Part shown: positions 769 through 14,271 of the stretch, piece after piece | Numbering within the stretch: the first letter of the stretch is position 1 | Layout of the letters: each line of letters starts with the position of its first letter | Source: Thermosipho sp. (in: thermotogales) | GTDB taxonomy: Bacteria > Thermotogota > Thermotogae > Thermotogales > Fervidobacteriaceae | Direction: 5' to 3' | NCBI GenBank assembly: GCA_017656345.1 | Contig: JACDNZ010000005.1 | Location: forward strand, 1 to 64,000 | DNA: 64,000 nt | Made by a program: the position numbers and the translations under genes | Notes under the pieces: generated by a model | The model's database searches: none | What the model was told of the DNA's origin: nothing | The model's input: only the letters and a program-made list of their open reading frames with translations

Positions 769-2988
769 TTATCCGCATTTACTGTAACCGCAGTTTGTGC
801 ATACAACACAACCACCATCCGGCTGCAGAGTACGCAAACCGCATTCCGGGCATTCATCATAATCGGTATTCCCAACATTTTTTACGGGTTCCGCTGCAAC
901 AGCTATTTCTTTATTTATTTCTTCTTGTTGCAGGGCATATTCCAGTTCCCGTCCAATGGCATCCGGGCAACTTAAAACTTCACTTTTACCATTAGCGCGA
1001 AGGCAAGAAGGACACCGAATACCTCTTAACTGGTCAATGATTTCTTTAGGATCTACCCCGCTGCGGAGTGCAATTGACGCTAACCTGCCAATTGCGATAC
1101 TTTGAGAAGGACAACCCCCACGTTTGCCAGTCCTAGCAAACACTTCGGCTATTCCATGTTCATCTTTATTAGTTGTGATGAACATGGAACCACATCCTGT
1201 CTTCCACGAGGTTGTTACCCCAAATAACCGTTTGCCGCGGGGACGAGGTTTGATGTTTTTCGGTACAGCTGCTACTGCCTCTACTTTTTTGCTTGCACTG
1301 GTGTTTAAAACCTGACTCTGGCGGCTACCGTCACGATATACGGTAGTGCCTTTCAACCCTAATTCATATGCCAGCAGATAAATCTTCTTAACATCCTCCA
1401 CCGTTGCAGAGTTAGGAAGATTTACCGTCTTGCTGACTGCATTCTCGGTATGACGCTGGAACGCAGCCTGCATACGCACATGAACTTCCGGGTCAATTTC
1501 AGCAGAGATTTCAAACACCTGCTCGACATCCTTCGGTACTCCCTTTATGCCTCGGCAACTACCTCCGTTGTCAAGAATTTCTTGCGGCAAAGAATCACGC
1601 CAGAAACCTCTTGCTCTAGCAACCCGCTCAAAGGCGGAATTAATCTCGATGAACTCCTGATCCACCCGTTTGGAAATTGTAGTTAAACCAAAGATAGGTT
1701 CAATGCCGCTACTTACACCGGCCAGCATGGAAATACTTCCAGTTGGTGCAATTGTTGTAACAGTAGCATTACGACGTTTAATGCCTTTTTCCTGCCACAA
1801 AGACCCTTCCCACGCAGGGAATACTCCTCTTTCCGCAGCCAAATCCACACTGGCTTGGTGAGCAGTACGATTTATAAAACCCATAACTTCTTCTGCAATT
1901 TCCTGGGCTTTAGGGGCAGAGTAAGGTACGCCTAACATAGTCAACATGTCGGCAAACCCCATCACCCCTAACCCAATCTTACGGGTCTTAAGAGTCTGCT
2001 CTTTAATTTCGGGCAGCGGGTACTTGTTAACTGTTATTACGTTGTCCAAAAATCTTACGGCCAACCTGACCGTTTCTGCTAATTTTTCAAAATCAATTTC
2101 CCCGCTGTCAACCTTAACGTGCTTCACTAGGTTTACAGAACCTAGATTACAGCACTCGTTAGGTAACAGTGGCTGCTCTCCGCAGGGATTGGTGGCTTCA
2201 ATGTTCCCAAGTTGTGGAGTAGGATTAGCGGCGTTAATATTGTCCAGGAAGATAACTCCCGGTTCACCGTTTTTCCACGCCTGGTAAACAATCTTTTCAA
2301 AAACTGCTCTTGCATTCAATTTTCTGACTGTTTTGCCTGTGTGTGGTTCTACTAAAGCATAATCTTCCCCGTTAGCGAAGGCCCTCATAAATTCCCTGGT
2401 AATGCCAACGGAGAAATTGAAGTTGCTGTATTCGCCTTCTTTATTTTTAGCTACAATAAACTTTTCAATATCCGGGTGGTCAACCCTAAGAAGCCCCATG
2501 TTGGCTCCTTTCCGTTTACCACCCTGCTTAATCGCATTTGTTGCTTCGTCGAAAACTTTAATGAATGGCAACGGTCCGCTTGAAAATTTACCAGTACCTT
2601 TCACATACGCCCCCGCTTGGCGAAGGCTAGAAAAGGAAAATCCAGTGCCGCCTCCGCTTTTATGTATCATAGCGGCTTTTGCCACAGCACCGTAAATTCC
2701 CTCGATGCTGTCAGGTACCGGCAATACGTAGCACGCTGCCAATTGTCCAAGCGGAGTACCCGCATTCATCAATGTCGGCGAGTTGGGTAAGAAAGCCAGG
2801 GAAGTCATGAGGCTATAATACTTCTTTGCCCATTCTTTCCTTTCTTCTTTCTTTTCTGCCTCCGCAATGGCATTGGCAACGCGCCAGAACAATTGCTCCG
2901 GCGTCTCGATTGCATTTCCTTCCTCATCAGTCTGCAAATAACGCTTTTTCAGTAAAGTCATAGCATTATCAGTTAAGTTTAAGCTCAT
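769..2988 (-). CDS. nrdJ: Adenosylcobalamin-dependent (class II) ribonucleoside-diphosphate reductase
   Basis: Reduces ribonucleotides to deoxyribonucleotides using a B12-generated thiyl radical. About 739 aa, full length. Visible: LAACYVLPVPDSIEG with the first redox cysteine (about 86), the SGGGTGFSFSSLR loop, NPCGE at about 267-271, APTGSISMLAGVSSGIEP, then a TSCPD domain near residues 590-680 and a C-terminal zinc-ribbon with ECPECG, CTNCG and a terminal CG. No small subunit gene is nearby, as expected for class II. ATG at 2988 is preferred over TTG at 2994 because GGAGG sits 8 nt upstream. Such genes on phages and large plasmids supply dNTPs for their own replication. The leader is long and structured. 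Confidence 0.95.
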   Translation of the reverse strand: MSLNLTDNAMTLLKKRYLQTDEEGNAIETPEQLFWRVANAIAEAEKKEERKEWAKKYYSLMTSLAFLPNSPTLMNAGTPLGQLAACYVLPVPDSIEGIYGAVAKAAMIHKSGGGTGFSFSSLRQAGAYVKGTGKFSSGPLPFIKVFDEATNAIKQGGKRKGANMGLLRVDHPDIEKFIVAKNKEGEYSNFNFSVGITREFMRAFANGEDYALVEPHTGKTVRKLNARAVFEKIVYQAWKNGEPGVIFLDNINAANPTPQLGNIEATNPCGEQPLLPNECCNLGSVNLVKHVKVDSGEIDFEKLAETVRLAVRFLDNVITVNKYPLPEIKEQTLKTRKIGLGVMGFADMLTMLGVPYSAPKAQEIAEEVMGFINRTAHQASVDLAAERGVFPAWEGSLWQEKGIKRRNATVTTIAPTGSISMLAGVSSGIEPIFGLTTISKRVDQEFIEINSAFERVARARGFWRDSLPQEILDNGGSCRGIKGVPKDVEQVFEISAEIDPEVHVRMQAAFQRHTENAVSKTVNLPNSATVEDVKKIYLLAYELGLKGTTVYRDGSRQSQVLNTSASKKVEAVAAVPKNIKPRPRGKRLFGVTTSWKTGCGSMFITTNKDEHGIAEVFARTGKRGGCPSQSIAIGRLASIALRSGVDPKEIIDQLRGIRCPSCLRANGKSEVLSCPDAIGRELEYALQQEEINKEIAVAAEPVKNVGNTDYDECPECGLRTLQPDGGCVVCTNCGYSKCG

Positions 2989-3459
2989 AAACAATTCCTC
3001 CTTTTCATTTTTAAATGAAACTGATTAGGAATAAATTTTGATATAAGTTTTTTAAAACTCAACACCTCCAGATTTAGCATCCTCTTACCTATCAGTTTCA
3101 TTTCCTCCTATGCATTTTTGGGGAAAATACCCCTTCTCCCAAACTTCCGCTTCGACCATTTATAGGCCGAAAGCTCTTTTTGGTTATTTTGAGTAAACCC
3201 GGGGAATTCACCTGGGCGAATAGTTAAACCATTCACCGTAATACTATTATTTTTCTCCCTCCTTCCATTTTTGCGCTCCTGTACCACACCTCAAAACTTT
3301 TTCTACCCTCCCCTTTTTTCAAGGAATAAAAAAACAGCTTTAAGAAATAAACTTCTCACTCCTCAAAGCTGTTTTCCACTCCATTTTTTAATATTATTTT
3401 CACCTATCCACCGCAAGTAATCTTACCGCGGCTTTAATTTGTATTTTGTTATTAAGATA
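2989..3459 (-). promoter_or_regulatory. Long RNR leader (about 470 nt)
   Basis: No large gene. It holds a perfect 11-bp hairpin (AAAACAGCTTT/AAAGCTGTTTT, 3331-3375) followed by T residues in minus orientation, which looks like an attenuator, and possible short reading frames: a GTG-started 42-aa frame at 3236-3108 and a 38-aa frame at 3101-2985 that overlaps the nrdJ start. Neither has well-spaced ribosome binding sites. I do not see the conserved boxes of a cobalamin riboswitch, though B12 control would make sense for this enzyme. Confidence 0.45.
3326..3376 (-). terminator. Attenuator-like hairpin in nrdJ leader
   Basis: The arms 3331-3341 and 3365-3375 are perfect complements (11 bp) followed on the minus strand by a T-rich run. 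Its place between promoter and gene suggests conditional termination. Confidence 0.55.
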
Positions 3460-3915: not shown

Positions 3916-3993
3916 TATAGCAGCACATCTGCTATAAACACAAAAAATCTTTAGGAAACAAGCACGCATTTCGCTCGCTCCTAAAGATTTTTT
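3916..3993 (-). terminator. Two leader hairpins before the 78-aa gene
   Basis: A perfect 15-bp stem (3942-3956 with 3979-3993) followed by TTTTTTG on the minus strand, then a second stem TATAGCAG/CTGCTATA (3936-3916) followed by six or more A/T in terminator style. Both lie between promoter and gene. Confidence 0.6.
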
Positions 3994-4033
3994 ACCACAA
4001 AAATCTAATTATTTTGCCAATCACCTTACTTAA

Positions 4034-4094: not shown

Positions 4095-4131
4095 AAAAAA
4101 AGAAGCGGTAACCAAAAGGTTACACCGCTTC
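4095..4131 (-). terminator. Terminator of the recombination/ubiquitin-like operon
   Basis: Minus-strand stem GAAGCGG...CCGCTTC with a GGTTAC/GTAACC inner part, followed by TTTTTTTATT. The upstream arm overlaps the last codons of the E1-like gene. Confidence 0.75.
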
Positions 4132-4875
4132 TCCAACTTCATCCTCGGAAGTTAATTCTGGCCTGGCATAACATACCTGAGAATTGTAATTTACCCTGCT
4201 AACCAATATTTCATTATTAGTTAGTAGGGAATTCAACACCGAGAAAGCTGCCAGAGCCGACTGAATATTTGTCGCCACATTCTGCGGAGCATGATAACTT
4301 CGCTCCGCACAACTTTCTTCCGACTTAAACTTCGAATCATCATTAAGCACTTCTGGAAAAACATCCCCCACCGGTTTTAAGATTTGACGACCATCCAACT
4401 TAAACCCAACTATTAGTTGTCCTACATACTCTTCGTTTCCCACATCAAGGTAAAGCAAAGTATTGACCCGTTTGAAATACCGGTGCATAACCGCTCTCGA
4501 TTTATTATTGTCCACACACCCTATTAGAATGGGCAATGTGGGCCTAGGTGTTATCCAAGCTCCATAAAAAAGACTTTCTAACTGGTCAATACTTTCACAG
4601 TATTCCGTTGAATAGCCAATATTTAATCCATGCGCTTTGCCATAACGCTCTGCCAGAACTTCTGCTTTGAACCTGCCAATATCAGCGGGAATAAATTTCT
4701 GCCGGCTAAGATTAGCTTCTTCAACCACATCCCCGTCAGCTATTACATAAGCCACGGGCCTTGATACACTGTATATTAACTGAGTTAAAAACTCTGTCAA
4801 GTAGCTTCCATTCCCCCCTGCTCCAATTTGGACTATACTAAAAGAACAGGGAGCCTTCCATCCTGTTAACCGCAT
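4120..4875 (-). CDS. E1-like ThiF-family adenylating enzyme (PRTRC ThiF type)
   Basis: Expected to adenylate the C-terminus of the ubiquitin-like protein and load it on a cysteine. Visible: nucleotide loop GAGGNG at residues 18-23, the DGDVVEEANLSRQ strand with arginine finger (46-59), the FK lysine at about 70, and a candidate catalytic Cys189 in KSEESCAERSY. 251 aa, a compact single-domain E1. The start overlaps the JAB stop by 10 nt, so translation is coupled. It is the last gene of the operon. The order E2-Ub-JAB-E1 matches PRTRC cassettes, known from proteobacterial mobile elements. A sulfur-carrier role (ThiF/MoeB) is less likely because no thiamin, molybdopterin or rhodanese gene is near. 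Confidence 0.82.
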   Translation of the reverse strand: MRLTGWKAPCSFSIVQIGAGGNGSYLTEFLTQLIYSVSRPVAYVIADGDVVEEANLSRQKFIPADIGRFKAEVLAERYGKAHGLNIGYSTEYCESIDQLESLFYGAWITPRPTLPILIGCVDNNKSRAVMHRYFKRVNTLLYLDVGNEEYVGQLIVGFKLDGRQILKPVGDVFPEVLNDDSKFKSEESCAERSYHAPQNVATNIQSALAAFSVLNSLLTNNEILVSRVNYNSQVCYARPELTSEDEVGEAV

Positions 4876-5447
4876 TGATAATCACCCAATTCAAAAACCT
4901 CGCCGAGCTTTAAAGGTTTGTAATAACCATTACAGCTCATGCGAAGCCTTATTTTAGGGCGTTCCCGATGGAGCCCGGCCACTATTCCGTATAATCCAGT
5001 TGCAATCTCGTCCCTGTCATCTACCGGGGAGAATTGAGCAAAATCTCCAGGGTGGGAATGCATCTCAAGCACTAATATACAGTTTTCCGGCACATCCCGC
5101 TGAAAAGTTACCGCGTATCTGTCTCCTTTCTGGTGGGGATATTTTACAAAATGTTTCTTTGTTTGTTTATTCCAGAAGACCTGGGCAACTTTTTCTTTGG
5201 GTTGAGCTTTTTTAAAGGCATCTATAATTTCCATTAAAATTTCAAGAGGAATTTTTGGGAGGGAAGGCGTAAAACCTTCCTCTACCCGTTCCAATTCCTC
5301 TATTTCCTCTGTTACCTTTTTGCTAAAGAACCCAACCCCATTATGCCTTATCTCGTAAATACCGTCTCTCCCCATTACATAGTTAATGGGCCTCGGATTT
5401 TTCTTCATTTCCTCAAGGGAAGTGAATATGCCTACTAAACTATTCAT
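4866..5447 (-). CDS. JAB/MPN metallopeptidase, PRTRC protein A-like
   Basis: A zinc isopeptidase fold expected to trim or remove the ubiquitin-like protein. The JAMM signature is complete: MHSHPGDFAQFSPVDD gives H-x-H-P-x6-S-x2-D at residues 133-146 of the longer reading, followed by a G-rich strand and the pattern GLHRERPKIRLRMSCNG typical of PRTRC A. The N-terminal 65 residues are helical and charged. Start ATG 5447 is preferred over GTG 5456 because AAGGGA lies 10 nt upstream. It overlaps the stop of the Ub-like gene by 8 nt and the E1 start by 10 nt, implying coupled stoichiometry. Confidence 0.85.
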   Translation of the reverse strand: MNSLVGIFTSLEEMKKNPRPINYVMGRDGIYEIRHNGVGFFSKKVTEEIEELERVEEGFTPSLPKIPLEILMEIIDAFKKAQPKEKVAQVFWNKQTKKHFVKYPHQKGDRYAVTFQRDVPENCILVLEMHSHPGDFAQFSPVDDRDEIATGLYGIVAGLHRERPKIRLRMSCNGYYKPLKLGEVFELGDYQCG

Positions 5448-5817
5448 ATTTTTCACTTCCCTTCTTGCCCATTCCGAGAACGGGAATTACCATGCATTTT
5501 TTTGCATCATAATTCATTTTTACAAGTTTCTTATCTTGCAGTTCCATAAATTTTTTGCCCAGCCACTTACGAATGACTTCCAGCGCTTCTTCTTCGGACT
5601 TCCCTTTAGCTTTTGCTACCACATCATCCGGAACTACAATCTGGTGGCCAGCATATCCAACTATCACAGGTTTACCCGGTTCAAACAACTTGTCTGTCTC
5701 CGTCTTGGCTGGATCTGTTTTCTCTTTTTTCTTACCCTCCTCATTGGCAGCCTTGCCTTCATTTTTTCCTTCCTCTTTATTTACATCCTCCACATCAAAA
5801 AGTCTTAATTCTTCCAT
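5440..5817 (-). CDS. Ubiquitin-like protein, PRTRC protein C-like
   Basis: The likely modifier of the cassette. 125 aa: a highly charged, Lys/Glu-rich, probably disordered N-terminal 45 residues, then a compact domain from about 46 with a beta-hairpin (KPVIVGYAGHQIVVPDD), a helix (SEEEALEVIRKWLGKKF) and a last strand KKCMVIPVLGMGKKG. PRTRC C proteins end in a strand plus G-x-K-G; here Gly120 is followed by five more residues (SEKYE), so maturation by the adjacent JAB peptidase can be inferred. ATG 5817 is chosen for the strong GAGGAGGG site. The assignment depends on context and the C-terminal motif, because the domain itself is short and divergent. Confidence 0.65.
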   Translation of the reverse strand: MEELRLFDVEDVNKEEGKNEGKAANEEGKKKEKTDPAKTETDKLFEPGKPVIVGYAGHQIVVPDDVVAKAKGKSEEEALEVIRKWLGKKFMELQDKKLVKMNYDAKKCMVIPVLGMGKKGSEKYE

Positions 5818-5845
5818 TTTTTTACCCTCCTCAAATTTAATATTT

Positions 5846-7015
5846 TTATTCACCAAAGCTATCAAAATAGCTTTGAAAATCAATGCCAATAGGTCTTAAT
5901 AATTCTATTGGGAATACTTCCTTTGTCTCCAGTTCCTCAAATAACTGCCGCAAAGGTTTCTTATTGACATACAAGTCGTTGTTATTTTCAGCCCCGAAAA
6001 ACAGCTCGGGGACCATTTCAAGCTGCCTCGGCTCTTTTATTTTAAAATCGCCCAATCCGATTGTTCCCCAACATATTTTAGTGTTGCTGTAAACATTACT
6101 GAAAGGATAATGAAATAATTGTGTTTCTCTGTTTATTACCGTGTCTTTTACTGCGACTACCGTGCTGTTGGTTATTTTTTCACTTTCAACTTCTAAGAAA
6201 AATATCAGATTGGGATAAGGCACCTGGAATCTGTCTTTAAAATAAGCCGTCCAGCGTTTCTTGCCGCTAACCAAAAGGGCTACTGCATACTTCTCGTTAT
6301 TAACAGATTCCTTGTAAGCCACTGTTCCCTGTGGTAGCACAGGGGTTTTAACACCAAACTTTCGGCCTAATTCTCCGTATGTTTCTTGAAATGTTTCCTG
6401 AATAACTGCTAGAAATTCAGCCGGGCCAATCTTATTTTTTCGTGTTACATTTCCTTCGTTGCTGATAATCGTGATATCACCTTTGCTGCCAAGTTTAATA
6501 GTTACCTCAGTTGCAGGCTTTTCTTCTTCTTTAGGCCAGTTATTCCGGTCAGTTTTTATTAAAACTGCTTGGGGGTCAAATTCACGAGCCAACATATACA
6601 AATCGAATAACTCGTCTATGAAAGCTAAACTGCCCATATCAAATAGCATTTCTTCGTCATAGTAAACAATAAGCTTTTTGCCCTGTTTCTGTAACCCCCA
6701 ACCCACACAGCGCTTACCTATTTCATTGGCTTTCTGGTACGCTTCGTTTCGCCTATCTTCAGGTATTCGGTTAAAGTCTAAAACCACAACTTCAATTCTG
6801 AACTCATTTTCTGCCACTCTTACCTCTGAAAACAAGCTTTGAAAAAATATTTCAGCAAAGTCAAAGCAAGAATATCCTTGTTGGAACTGCAATTTAGCAA
6901 GTTTCTCGTTTAAAGGTACTCCCTCGTCATAAAATTTTTTTACGATGCCAATTATTGTAGCATCGCTAAGCATTTGATTTAACTGCTCTGCAGAATAGAA
7001 AGAATCTGCAGTCAT
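5846..7015 (-). CDS. E2-like conjugating protein (PRTRC protein B / Prok-E2_D type) with N-terminal extension
   Basis: Expected to receive the modifier from the E1. The C-terminal half carries the E2 hallmark of this family: FHYPFSNVYSNTKICWG, that is an HPN-like segment followed by a catalytic Cys (about residue 315) and Trp, then FFGAENN. 389 aa, longer than usual PRTRC B (about 240 aa): the first 190 residues are an extra domain of alternating strands and helices I cannot name. Start ATG 7015 follows GAGGAGGGGG. It sits between the 146-aa unknown and the Ub-like gene in the operon. Confidence 0.75.
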   Translation of the reverse strand: MTADSFYSAEQLNQMLSDATIIGIVKKFYDEGVPLNEKLAKLQFQQGYSCFDFAEIFFQSLFSEVRVAENEFRIEVVVLDFNRIPEDRRNEAYQKANEIGKRCVGWGLQKQGKKLIVYYDEEMLFDMGSLAFIDELFDLYMLAREFDPQAVLIKTDRNNWPKEEEKPATEVTIKLGSKGDITIISNEGNVTRKNKIGPAEFLAVIQETFQETYGELGRKFGVKTPVLPQGTVAYKESVNNEKYAVALLVSGKKRWTAYFKDRFQVPYPNLIFFLEVESEKITNSTVVAVKDTVINRETQLFHYPFSNVYSNTKICWGTIGLGDFKIKEPRQLEMVPELFFGAENNNDLYVNKKPLRQLFEELETKEVFPIELLRPIGIDFQSYFDSFGE

Positions 7016-7028
7016 TTTTCCCCCTCCT

Positions 7029-7469
7029 CTAAAAATAATCAACTGGCTCACGCTTTTTTGGCAACCTGGATAATTGGTACTTAAATTCTTCAGTTAGTAT
7101 TACGTCATGCAGTGGGTTTTCGGCGTTCGCGTATTCATCCGCATCCATCACACTTTCCACACATACGTATCCCCATAATGCTTCAAAAAATTCTTCCAAA
7201 TCCTCTAGTGTAAATCCATTGAAGTCAATGTCTGCCAAGGTGATTGCGGGATCATAAATATGATACATTTTTGCACATGAATTATAAGCCTTGATGTAAT
7301 CATTGGAACTTTCATTGTACTTCCGCAATTTCTCTATTAATTTGGAATACACCATGTCAGCCAGCTTTGCATTTTTAGCCCTTTTAGGCTCCTCCTCTCT
7401 CAACTTTTCTCCCTCCTTTTCATCTTTTTCAAACGAAAAGGATTTAGGGGCATGTTTCACACGCCCCAT
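7029..7469 (-). CDS. Conserved hypothetical (146 aa)
   Basis: Unrecognised. The N-terminal 40 residues are strongly charged (Lys/Glu) and followed by helices; no cysteine cluster beyond scattered residues, no membrane segment. It lies between the Gam-like and E2-like genes with 5-nt and 13-nt gaps, so it belongs to the same transcript. It may be a target or accessory of the ubiquitin-like system or part of the recombination module. Confidence 0.65.
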   Translation of the reverse strand: MGRVKHAPKSFSFEKDEKEGEKLREEEPKRAKNAKLADMVYSKLIEKLRKYNESSNDYIKAYNSCAKMYHIYDPAITLADIDFNGFTLEDLEEFFEALWGYVCVESVMDADEYANAENPLHDVILTEEFKYQLSRLPKKREPVDYF

Positions 7470-7474
7470 AAGAT

Positions 7475-8095
7475 TTAAAACTTAACGTCAAATGCCTCCG
7501 GCACCCTCTCGATCTCTATACCGGGAATATCAAGTACCTCCCCGGTTTCAGTATCAATAATGGTGTTACCGTCTTTAATTTCGAGTCTCTTTTTGAACTG
7601 TCCCCATTGAAGTTGGGGCTCCTCTTTAATAAATTCCTCAAAGCAGCCGTTTTCTTTAGCCCATTTACCAGCGATTTTCTTATCACATTTCAGCTGGAAC
7701 TTGGGCTTTTTCAAAATCAATGCTCCGTACGGCAATTTATATTTTATTTGAGTTTCTTGCTCTTGTTTGCCTTCTTCAAGAGACTCGAAGTATTCCCTCA
7801 ATAATTTGAGGTATACATTGCGTTCACCTAGCCACTTCAATTTTTCCTTTTCAATTTCCTGTTCCAGCTCTTTTATCATACCTTCCGCTACTTTTTTAAA
7901 CCTCTCAAACTGTTTGTCTATGTTCTCAATTTTTTTGAGGGCCCATGCGGCCTTCTCGTCGCTATCAATCACAAAACGCTGCTTTTCTTCCTCCTCATCT
8001 TCTCCAATCTTTTGACCATCGCCGAACATCATGTCGATAATTTTATTAGCGATGATCTCGTCCTCAAGACTGTCTTGTTTTAAATTAACCGCCAT
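7475..8095 (-). CDS. Mu Gam-like host-nuclease inhibitor protein
   Basis: Gam proteins bind and shield double-strand ends from host exonucleases. 206 aa. After an acidic N-terminus, DEKAAWALKKIENID begins a long coiled coil (about residues 50-120), followed by KYKLPYGALILKKPKF, the hairpin typical of Gam family members, and a C-terminal domain rich in charged residues. It follows the ERF-like gene after 59 nt, the usual partnership of annealing protein with end-protection protein in phages. Confidence 0.75.
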   Translation of the reverse strand: MAVNLKQDSLEDEIIANKIIDMMFGDGQKIGEDEEEEKQRFVIDSDEKAAWALKKIENIDKQFERFKKVAEGMIKELEQEIEKEKLKWLGERNVYLKLLREYFESLEEGKQEQETQIKYKLPYGALILKKPKFQLKCDKKIAGKWAKENGCFEEFIKEEPQLQWGQFKKRLEIKDGNTIIDTETGEVLDIPGIEIERVPEAFDVKF

Positions 8096-8154
8096 TTTAT
8101 TCCCTCCTCAAAATTTTAGTAGTTTAGTCGAGAGAGGAAATATTCCCCTCTCAA

Positions 8155-9105
8155 CTATGCAGTTAACTTTTGCTTCAGGCTGTTAATCATCATCTGGGCC
8201 TGTTGGTTAGTTAACTGCTCTAATTCCTCGATACCATACTGCTGACAAATCAGTCCTGCAAGTTCTTGCTTATCCTTGCCTTGCTTTTTGGCAACCTTTT
8301 CAAGCAGAACCCACAGGTACTTGATTTTTCGTTCATCAGCAGTATTTTGCCCTTGAGCTTTATCGGCTCCCTTGTCCTTGCTTTGGTTGCTGCTACCCTT
8401 GGCACCGGCAGAAGCCGAAGAACTGTTGTTAAACAGCTGCTTAATCAGCTTATCTGCCTGGTCAAAGGTGAGCTTTTCAATTTTTTCCTTTGTGAGACCC
8501 AGCATTTCCATATTCCCCTTCTTGCTGAGGATGTTCTTCTGTTTCTCCGTAGCTGGGCGTGCTTGTTGTTCTAATTCCTGATGTTCGGCCATAGCCCGAA
8601 CCACTTCTTCGTAACTGGCAATGCCAGTTCCAACCAGGCCATAACCCAGGAAGCCCAGGGCACGCCCTAAAGCCGAAGTTTCGGCGTTTTCCACCGGGTT
8701 GGTGGCGTCAACGCTTCGGCCACCGAAGCCAACTTTTGCCGTTCCGCTAGCTTCACCGCGGGCGGTGTGTACTCTGACTATACACACCATTTGGTCGCCA
8801 ATCTCAGTGTATTCCGGCGGGTCCACCTTAAACGGCTTCCCTGCTTCTTTAGCTTCATCAACTGCCCAAGCTACTCTGCCATCGACAGAGAAGTAGGGCA
8901 CTTGTGTTTTTATATAGGTCGCCCCTCTGTAACTAAATACCCCCAGCCGGGCTAGCTCTGGGTCAATTTCAATATCCATGTTGAGGATTTTCTGGTTTTG
9001 CTCCAGAAAAATCAAAAACGGCAGGTATTTTTCCGGGATCATCTTTTTGGCCTGTTCCCGGAGTATCTCCTCACGCTTTTTAATTTCCTTGACCTTTTCT
9101 ATCAT
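8155..9105 (-). CDS. ERF/Sak-like single-strand annealing protein
   Basis: Probable recombinase that anneals complementary single strands. Core at residues 45-180: DGRVAWAVDEA, a beta sheet, then NPVENAETSALGRALGFLGYG, the conserved helix of ERF-type phage annealing proteins, and TGIASYEEV. The C-terminal 130 residues hold a Ser/Gly/Ala-rich linker (about 225-255) and a helical tail that resembles C-terminal SSB- or replication-partner domains. First gene of the operon behind the 9.55 kb promoter. The exact family (ERF, Sak or DUF1071) is not certain. Confidence 0.7.
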   Translation of the reverse strand: MIEKVKEIKKREEILREQAKKMIPEKYLPFLIFLEQNQKILNMDIEIDPELARLGVFSYRGATYIKTQVPYFSVDGRVAWAVDEAKEAGKPFKVDPPEYTEIGDQMVCIVRVHTARGEASGTAKVGFGGRSVDATNPVENAETSALGRALGFLGYGLVGTGIASYEEVVRAMAEHQELEQQARPATEKQKNILSKKGNMEMLGLTKEKIEKLTFDQADKLIKQLFNNSSSASAGAKGSSNQSKDKGADKAQGQNTADERKIKYLWVLLEKVAKKQGKDKQELAGLICQQYGIEELEQLTNQQAQMMINSLKQKLTA

Positions 9106-9212: not shown

Positions 9213-9412
9213 GGCTGGGGGAATTCCCCAGCCGCGTCTACTTACTCTTGTGAGCTGCCCTTAAAAAAAGATAGTAACTGCAATACGTAGGCTAACAATT
9301 GTTTGATAACCTGTTAGATTCACGTTTTTTCCCTCCTTATTTTTTTCGGCAAATAAAAAATCCTTGGACGCCGACATCTTTACATACAAATGCCACGCCA
9401 AGGATTTTCTGC
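9213..9412 (-). promoter_or_regulatory. Leader of the recombination/ubiquitin-like operon
   Basis: No supported gene. In minus orientation it carries first a nested hairpin (GGCA/TGCC outside AAATCCTTGG/CCAAGGATTT; 9412-9347) followed by T residues, then a second palindrome GGCTGGGG/CCCCAGCC (9213-9233). The first hairpin shares flanks and layout with the primase leader at 16818-16881. A GTG-started 31-aa frame (ending in the ERF start codon region) is possible but unsupported. Confidence 0.6.
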
Positions 9413-9525
9413 CCTCTGATATTTGTTTTTACAACACAATACCCATTTTTAGCAATATCAGCTACTGCAAATCTTTCCAGTAGCTTTGGAAATTTTGACC
9501 ACACCCGCTATGCGGTTCTAAAATC

Positions 9526-9569
9526 ATTATAGCATATAGAAAATAGATATTGCAACCTATATAATTTGA
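9526..9569 (-). promoter_or_regulatory. Promoter of the recombination/ubiquitin-like operon
   Basis: Minus strand TTGCAA (9555-9550), 18-nt spacer, TATAAT (9531-9526), with the conserved upstream box TCAAATTATATAGGTTGCA (9569-9551) identical to that of nrdJ. Confidence 0.7.
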
Positions 9570-13416: not shown

Positions 13417-14271
13417 TTATTTATCTGTTATTACTTTGTTAATGACGTACTGTTTTTTCCCTTGGTAGAGACTTTCAAAATATCCAACCTTCAATTCTTT
13501 ACCTTTAACTAAATGTTCTTTATACTGCAAAAGCATCTCCAACATCTTCTGATGCTCACCTGGATTACGTTTGTTTTCCCGATAAACAATTATATCAATT
13601 TCTTCTCCTGTATTTACATCAACAGCTCTGGCTTTCAGCCGTACCGTACCACTGTCGTTTATCTGAACTTTTTCCAAAAGCCTTACTTTAGTAACTTTTT
13701 CACCAAAAGATTTGTCGTTACTATCATCCTCATCAAGGTAAAGATAACGCAGCATTCCCATAGTCTTAAAGCAGTCTTTTAGTCCGTTGGCCACTGCATT
13801 TTTCTCCGCTGAACCTTTCTTAACAGCTCCTGCGTAACCGATGCCGTCAACCTGATAATATGTAACAAATTCGCTTCCCGGAGTGTTATTTGCATCGGTA
13901 TACATCGTCCAGTTACCGATCTTCAAACTGACATATACTTTAAACCAGTGCATTGGCTGTTTCGATTCGTCCCGTTCATTTTTTACCAGTTCATATTCAT
14001 CAACTCTGTGTTCGATTTTTATATGTGAAGGTCCAAAGACTTTCTGAACACGGTTAAGTTGTAAAGCATATGACACACCTTTAGTAGTAAAACCGCCGTC
14101 TCTCCCCGTTTCTACTGCCGACTCATCAAAAGGCAATAATAAAAGCTCCATTAACTTATCTATCAACTCAGGACTGATACGCCCATTTTCAAATTCTGTC
14201 GGAGCCGGAAGTTTCAGCTCTTTTCTTTTATCCTCAATCATTTTGTTATCTATCTTTAAGGCATCACACAT
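13417..14271 (-). CDS. Rad52-like single-strand annealing protein
   Basis: 284 aa. The core reads KRVQKVFG-like helix, strands with WFKVYVSLKIGNWTMYTDA, a GIGYAGAVKKGSAEKNAVANG loop and the helix LKDCFKTMGMLRYLYL, in the order strand-strand-K-A helix of Rad52/22-type annealing proteins. C-terminal 90 residues are strand rich (VNTGEEIDIIVYREN). A palindrome operator and -10 (14303-14324) lie directly upstream, so this gene starts its own transcript with the S1 and replication-relaxation genes. This is a second annealing protein beside the ERF-like one. Confidence 0.6.
   Translation of the reverse strand: MCDALKIDNKMIEDKRKELKLPAPTEFENGRISPELIDKLMELLLLPFDESAVETGRDGGFTTKGVSYALQLNRVQKVFGPSHIKIEHRVDEYELVKNERDESKQPMHWFKVYVSLKIGNWTMYTDANNTPGSEFVTYYQVDGIGYAGAVKKGSAEKNAVANGLKDCFKTMGMLRYLYLDEDDSNDKSFGEKVTKVRLLEKVQINDSGTVRLKARAVDVNTGEEIDIIVYRENKRNPGEHQKMLEMLLQYKEHLVKGKELKVGYFESLYQGKKQYVINKVITDK

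Follow-up and report, generated by a model that had tools for sequence, protein, structure and literature searches.

We have examined a window of 64,000 nucleotides (nt), the first 64 kb of the 101.5 kb contig JACDNZ010000005.1 (C5) from a Thermosipho genome bin of 2.12 Mb in 88 contigs, in which a minus-strand operon between positions 9105 and 4120 encodes a ubiquitin-like (Ub-like) protein, E1- and E2-like enzymes and a JAB protease. Judged from its sequence, the cassette is a genuine and intact Ub-like conjugation set of a known kind, present in a variant form and not as a strict PRTRC (ParB-related ThiF-related cassette) system. With a probability of about 0.6, we consider it to be a working type 6d (PRTRC-related) plasmid cassette for conjugation and deconjugation, the likeliest targets of which are plasmid replication and recombination proteins. 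The role of type 6d and PRTRC Ub-like cassettes appears to have been open since 2006, and the recurrence beside them of clamp, clamp-loader and annealing genes belonging to different families provides concrete candidate targets. If this reading is correct, a clamp or recombinase would be tagged by a ubiquitin-like protein in bacteria.

The conjugation genes

The seven genes of the operon, with lengths in amino acids (aa) and the family matches or methods by which each was identified, including searches with hidden Markov models (HMMs), are as follows.

4120..4875, minus strand: E1-like adenylating enzyme, 251 aa, with GxGGxG, D122 and candidate catalytic Cys189 (PF00899, TIGR03736)
4866..5447, minus strand: JAB/JAMM protease, 193 aa, with E85, HxH at 130/132, S140 and D143 (PF14464, TIGR03735)
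5440..5817, minus strand: ubiquitin-like protein, 125 aa, C-terminus GMGKKG-SEKYE (iterated HMM, hhalign, structure model)
5846..7015, minus strand: E2-like protein, 389 aa, E2 core about 222-389, candidate catalytic Cys315 (PF14460)
7029..7469, minus strand: X, 146 aa, a conserved protein placed first in Firmicute cassettes (iterated HMM)
7475..8095, minus strand: Mu Gam-like DNA-end protection protein, 206 aa (PF07352, PHROG 2205)
8155..9105, minus strand: P0007, 316 aa, a conserved N-terminal domain of no known family followed by a C-terminal GemA-like region (Pfam GemA)

Read from 9105 to 4120, the gene order is P0007, Gam, X, E2, Ub-like, JAB and E1, with gaps of 59 nt (P0007-Gam), 5 nt (Gam-X), 13 nt (X-E2) and 28 nt (E2-Ub) followed by overlaps of 8 nt (Ub-JAB) and 10 nt (JAB-E1). 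An earlier note on this DNA had described a contiguous E2, Ub, JAB and E1 set on one strand with overlap of the last three genes, and both descriptions are borne out, seven open reading frames (ORFs) lying at or within these positions with the support of Pfam matches and of Ub homology.

Three of the proteins exceed Pfam cut-offs, E1 as ThiF PF00899 (41.7 bits), JAB as Prok-JAB PF14464 (30.1 bits) and E2 as Prok-E2_D PF14460 (39.4 bits). The predicted catalytic residues, namely Cys189 of E1, Cys315 of E2 and the full JAMM motif, are intact. Conservation of these residues is extensive: the E1 position is Cys in 29/29 aligned sequences from Firmicutes, Acidobacteria, Pseudomonas and a phage, the E2 Cys is invariant in 29 homologues, and E85, H130, H132, S140 and D143 of the protease are kept in about 90% of 37 JABs. 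Asn307 of E2 precedes Cys315 by eight residues, the distance found for the HPN motif in classical E2s, and in the structure model the E2 core has a predicted local distance difference test (pLDDT) score of mostly 75-91. In the N-terminal extension, residues 1-69 align weakly with the alpha-helical protein family of related cassettes (E 0.002 among 8 sequences), so that residues 1-165 are probably, on this weak support, the cassette's alpha-helical protein fused to E2. X has about 18 homologues by iterated HMM, in most loci encoded upstream of the alpha and E2 genes.

Direct searches of Pfam, NCBIfam, PADLOC and PHROGs gave no family match for the Ub-like protein. An iterated HMM built from it nevertheless retrieved 24 homologues, located in cassettes among the loci analysed, and hhalign connects the family with PRTRC_C/Prok_Ub at E 8.5e-6. 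The same HMM also matches a fourfold Ub repeat in a Bacillus phage, KLEB27-3, that Pfam identifies as Prok_Ub (E 5e-27). The window protein is modelled as beta-beta-alpha-beta-beta, with a pLDDT close to 80 in the core. Gly120 is invariant in the family alignment and is followed in the window by a tail of five residues; five standalone homologues terminate exactly at KKG or AKG, and most others run into a JAB domain directly after the conserved glycine. The standalone ends, combined with the fusion to JAB elsewhere, fit processing by JAB, and the window protein, ending GMGKKG-SEKYE, should therefore need trimming.

Ub-JAB fusions were observed at L003, L042, L070, L074, L024-L026, L007, L068, L071-L073, L075, L076, L080 and L081, and the fusion with KKG placed directly before the JAB-side sequence may possibly represent a self-processing precursor. 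In phage vB_BauM_KLEB27-3 (L009), the polyubiquitin-like gene at 2694-3443 encodes four Prok_Ub repeats of 57 residues that are almost identical and all end in VKG-M, and E2-, JAB- and ThiF-like proteins are encoded near it.

Relation to known cassettes

Type 6d was defined by a Ub-like protein, JAB, E1 and E2 together with an alpha-helical protein, with Bacillus cereus and B. thuringiensis included (Iyer 2006, PMC1779556). The window resembles this type in its small standalone Ub-like protein with a conserved C-terminal Gly, in the side-by-side, overlapping E1 and JAB genes, and in a separate E2 gene with a conserved Cys. For the JAB-N domain of type 6d, which has a conserved Arg and Trp, the window JAB offers the conserved residues W92 and R169, but R169 follows the JAMM motif. 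The window differs in X, a component not named in type 6d, in the probable fusion of the alpha protein to E2, and in the inclusion of Gam and P0007 within the operon. In addition, the conserved His that follows the Cys in type 6d is missing from the E2, which has instead a His at -13 and the HPN-like Asn at -8. No His comes after Cys315 in the window protein, L042 or L027, some Firmicutes being among those that lack it, and it is present in Acidobacteria and PRTRC B. The window cassette is therefore a variant of type 6d and not a strict member. Since type 6d was already described and many Bacilli are found among the 405 plasmid records with ThiF relatives, neither the kind of cassette nor its Gram-positive occurrence is new; the earlier note had given mainly proteobacterial mobile elements as the known setting.

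The earlier note had also identified the proteins as PRTRC B, C, A and ThiF, an identification that stands only at the level of homology. The PRTRC models (TIGR03735/03736/03737) for A, B and ThiF match the right proteins, with C a distant relative, but all scores fall below the curated cut-offs (ThiF 108.1 < 144.75; A 50.9 < 101.8; B 30.1 < 131.45) and the gene order differs. No PRTRC ParB, E or D was detected among the proteins scanned, which comprised the neighbouring and actin-like proteins, a subset of the contig ORFs. With Bil (BilABCD, ISG15-like), the window shares a single operon containing Ub-like, E1, E2 and JAB genes, but it has a single Ub domain in place of a tandem and a short single-domain E1, and its only PADLOC match to Bil is a BilD trace of 9.9 bits.

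Neighbouring genes, candidate targets and alternatives

The proteins preceding the cassette in the window were identified with unequal certainty. The Mu Gam-like protein named in the earlier note is confirmed by Phage_Mu_Gam PF07352 (52.5 bits, cut-off 28.3) and PHROG 2205 (112 bits). A conserved link between Gam and the cassette was considered and rejected, as Gam adjoins the cassette only in the window and relatives on three other plasmid records are all located away from a cassette. P0007, matching Pfam GemA over residues 210-313 (33.1 bits), is a putative single-stranded DNA (ssDNA)-binding or annealing protein. The ERF-like identity previously proposed for it was not upheld, with no match to ERF (PF04404) or Rad52 and an hhalign E of 0.063 to the Acidobacteria ERF. 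A P0007 homologue is followed by toprim and ssb on a Thermobacillus plasmid, short relatives are located downstream of Acidobacteria cassettes, and relatives on Firmicute plasmids are distant from ThiF. One further annealing candidate lies in the window:

13417..14271, minus strand: divergent Rad52/22-family candidate, upstream of the operon on the same strand and outside it (Rad52-profile hhalign)

This protein was the best of 41 contig ORFs against the Rad52 profile (hhalign E 2.5e-4, probability 43%) and has no Pfam match.

Replication and recombination genes recur beside related cassettes. The order Rad52(-like)-DnaN-X-alpha-E2-UbJAB-ThiF is common to seven Bacillaceae/Planococcaceae plasmids, DnaN is directly upstream of X on Brevibacillus contigs, and dnaX, delta-prime and a DnaN-like gene come after ThiF in Lysinibacillus and Sporosarcina. 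Clostridial elements have E2 next to Rad52, with DnaN overlapped by ThiF in one of them. In Acidobacteria, a true ERF gene (PF04404, E near 1e-27) separates the alpha-position gene from E2, with ends that overlap or almost touch. Downstream of the cassette, Chroococcidiopsis encodes DnaN, DnaX and a polymerase, and a Pseudomonas megaplasmid has DnaN 3.8 kb downstream of a canonical PRTRC. Of 20 whole plasmids with a cassette (W01-W20), 19 encode a DnaN of their own, as does one viral record; among large Firmicute plasmids that bear the cassette, a sliding clamp of their own is thus nearly universal. DnaN is within 7 kb of ThiF in 10/19 plasmids against 1.6 expected. Combined, these observations are suggestive of a link between the cassettes and clamp, clamp-loader and annealing genes that is real in kind and not statistically settled; no description of such a link to clamps or Rad52 was found in the open-access literature. 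The wiring to DNA-end protection and annealing claimed in the earlier note is retained as a replication and recombination link, stronger in relatives than was visible to that note, and is lost in its details, Gam adjacency being confined to the window and P0007 not being an ERF.

In the Acidobacteria (L029-L048, L056), the cassette is present several times in each genome. Many of these copies are accompanied, in a conserved order, by ERF, an AAA ATPase and a P0007-like protein, an assembly that is possibly an unrecognised integrative element.

In addition to the E2 lacking a downstream His, several points weigh against the reading of a replication- and recombination-directed conjugation cassette. 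No DnaN is encoded on the window contig. Although 223 of the 405 ThiF records also match DnaN (344 DnaN records, union 526, by single versus joined query counts), these numbers are inflated by clonal plasmids, for example of Pseudomonas, and by plasmid size, and no additional DnaN records are visible for the ThiF plasmids of Burkholderia, Xanthomonas and Cupriavidus. Once collapsed to independent gene orders, DnaN is within 7 kb in 2/11 groups (P=0.22, not significant) and Rad52 adjacency is found in 2/5 (P=0.054, borderline). The cyanobacterial, Acidobacterial and Pseudomonas cases were added later and non-blind, the cyanobacterial and Pseudomonas cases being picked with coordinates known, and the cassettes of B. 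velezensis, Clostridioides and Paenibacillus peoriae are without clamp or annealing neighbours. Foldseek against the PDB returned no significant match for the Ub model, the nearest being GB1, a beta-grasp protein, at E about 1, nor for the E2 model, the low-confidence N-terminal half of which swamped the search; the beta-grasp fold and E2 core expected by the earlier note are therefore compatible with the models, but weakly. Finally, every reaction step and every target of the cassette is inferred.

A defence function against phages or competing plasmids, following the logic of Bil, Bub and Ub-like CBASS, would have the cassette tag invader proteins and the recombination genes adjoin it by chance. 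The cassette does have a mobile location, Bil and CBASS employ Ub-like conjugation, and DNA-damage-regulated Bub operons are regarded as putative immune pathways (PMC13373217). The PADLOC similarity of E1 to E1-E2 and BilD is, however, weak and limited to the nucleotide-binding part, the operon has no detected effector, nucleotidyltransferase or tandem Ub, and what recurs beside the cassettes is genes for replication and recombination, not other defence genes; we regard defence as unlikely. A role in plasmid maintenance or partition, suggested by the PRTRC name, with the plasmid being stabilised through protein modification or addiction, is quite unlikely. No ParB was found adjoining the window cassette among the scanned proteins, and the partner genes vary, with clamps and annealing proteins occupying the place of partition genes, despite the PRTRC ParB that precedes the cassette in Pseudomonas plasmids, the restriction of nearly all Firmicute cases to large plasmids, and the proposal that such cassettes act in addiction or protection from invading replicons (Iyer 2006, PMC1779556).

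The invariant Cys retained in both E1 and the E2 of the cassettes examined argues against a sulfur-carrier pathway, in which E1 would activate and JAB would trim a ThiS/MoaD-like carrier that is never conjugated to proteins, as does an operon devoid of sulfur-transfer or cofactor genes. This explanation is very improbable, even considering that sulfur carriers are processed by JAB in known pathways, that PAPS-reductase-like genes are located a few kb off in two plasmids, and that one Ub-like family member weakly matches ThiS (21.2 bits, cut-off 22.5). A more specific proposal, that plasmid Ub-like cassettes serve specifically to modify the sliding clamp and the ssDNA-annealing proteins encoded by the plasmid itself, comparable to PCNA ubiquitin/SUMO modification, with the Gam/P0007 module replacing the clamp partner in the window, is doubtful. 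What is shared with the eukaryotic system is only the idea of a modifier tied to a sliding clamp and Rad52-type annealing; homology is claimed only for the Ub, E1, E2 and JAB folds, and clamp modification here is hypothetical.

The preferred reading remains a type 6d-like cassette modifying plasmid replication and recombination proteins. In such a pathway, JAB would cut the modifier after GKKG, E1 would adenylate Gly120 and then hold the modifier as a thioester on Cys189, and transfer to Cys315 of E2 would precede transfer onto the target, X or the N-terminal extension of E2 possibly serving as adaptor. JAB would subsequently remove the tag again. Candidate targets in the window would be P0007, Gam or their DNA complexes and, elsewhere, the sliding clamp or Rad52/ERF.

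Transcription signals, contig and host

Three signals surround the operon.

4108..4123 (core stem; folded stretch 4095-4145), minus strand: intrinsic terminator after the E1 stop (scan; fold z -4.3)
9345..9420, minus strand: very stable hairpin with a T run after it, located between the promoter-like site and the first gene (-32.2 kcal/mol, z -5.7)
9526..9555, minus strand: sigma-70 promoter-like site with extended -10, TTGCAA-18-TATAAT, 10/12 (consensus match only)

From this layout, the seven genes are likely to form one transcript. The single upstream promoter of the earlier note has a counterpart in the site at 9555-9526, although as a consensus match only, and such matches in the region exceed chance by a modest margin (26 found against 16.6 expected, standard deviation 3.5). 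The hairpin at 9345-9420 may possibly be an attenuator. A second minus-strand hairpin at 3925-4005 (z -5.2) is located on the other side of the operon, and the two have similar long AAAATCyTTrGG stems; an Rfam scan of the window, these hairpins included, gave no match.

The contig is foreign to the genome bin in which it was placed. Its G+C content is 39%, compared with ~31% across most of the remaining genome, its tetranucleotide profile is foreign, and Prok-E2_D was absent in a search of 102 other genomes of the phylum. Either C5 is a plasmid acquired recently or it was mis-binned, and the host of the element is therefore uncertain. VirD4- and VirB4-like conjugation proteins are encoded on the element, in keeping with the conjugative part of its earlier designation as a clostridial-type conjugative element, while the host lineage in that designation is uncertain.

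Two other features of the contig were observed. A ribonucleotide reductase large chain of the barrel/TSCPD type adjoins the cassette on this plasmid-like contig (769-2994). The csf1 and csf2 genes (below cut-off) of a type IV clustered regularly interspaced short palindromic repeats (CRISPR) system are located at 97.7-101.5 kb of C5 (L013 13728-16103) and the start of contig C23, and the adjacent repeat array straddles the C5/C23 break, running on from C5 into C23.

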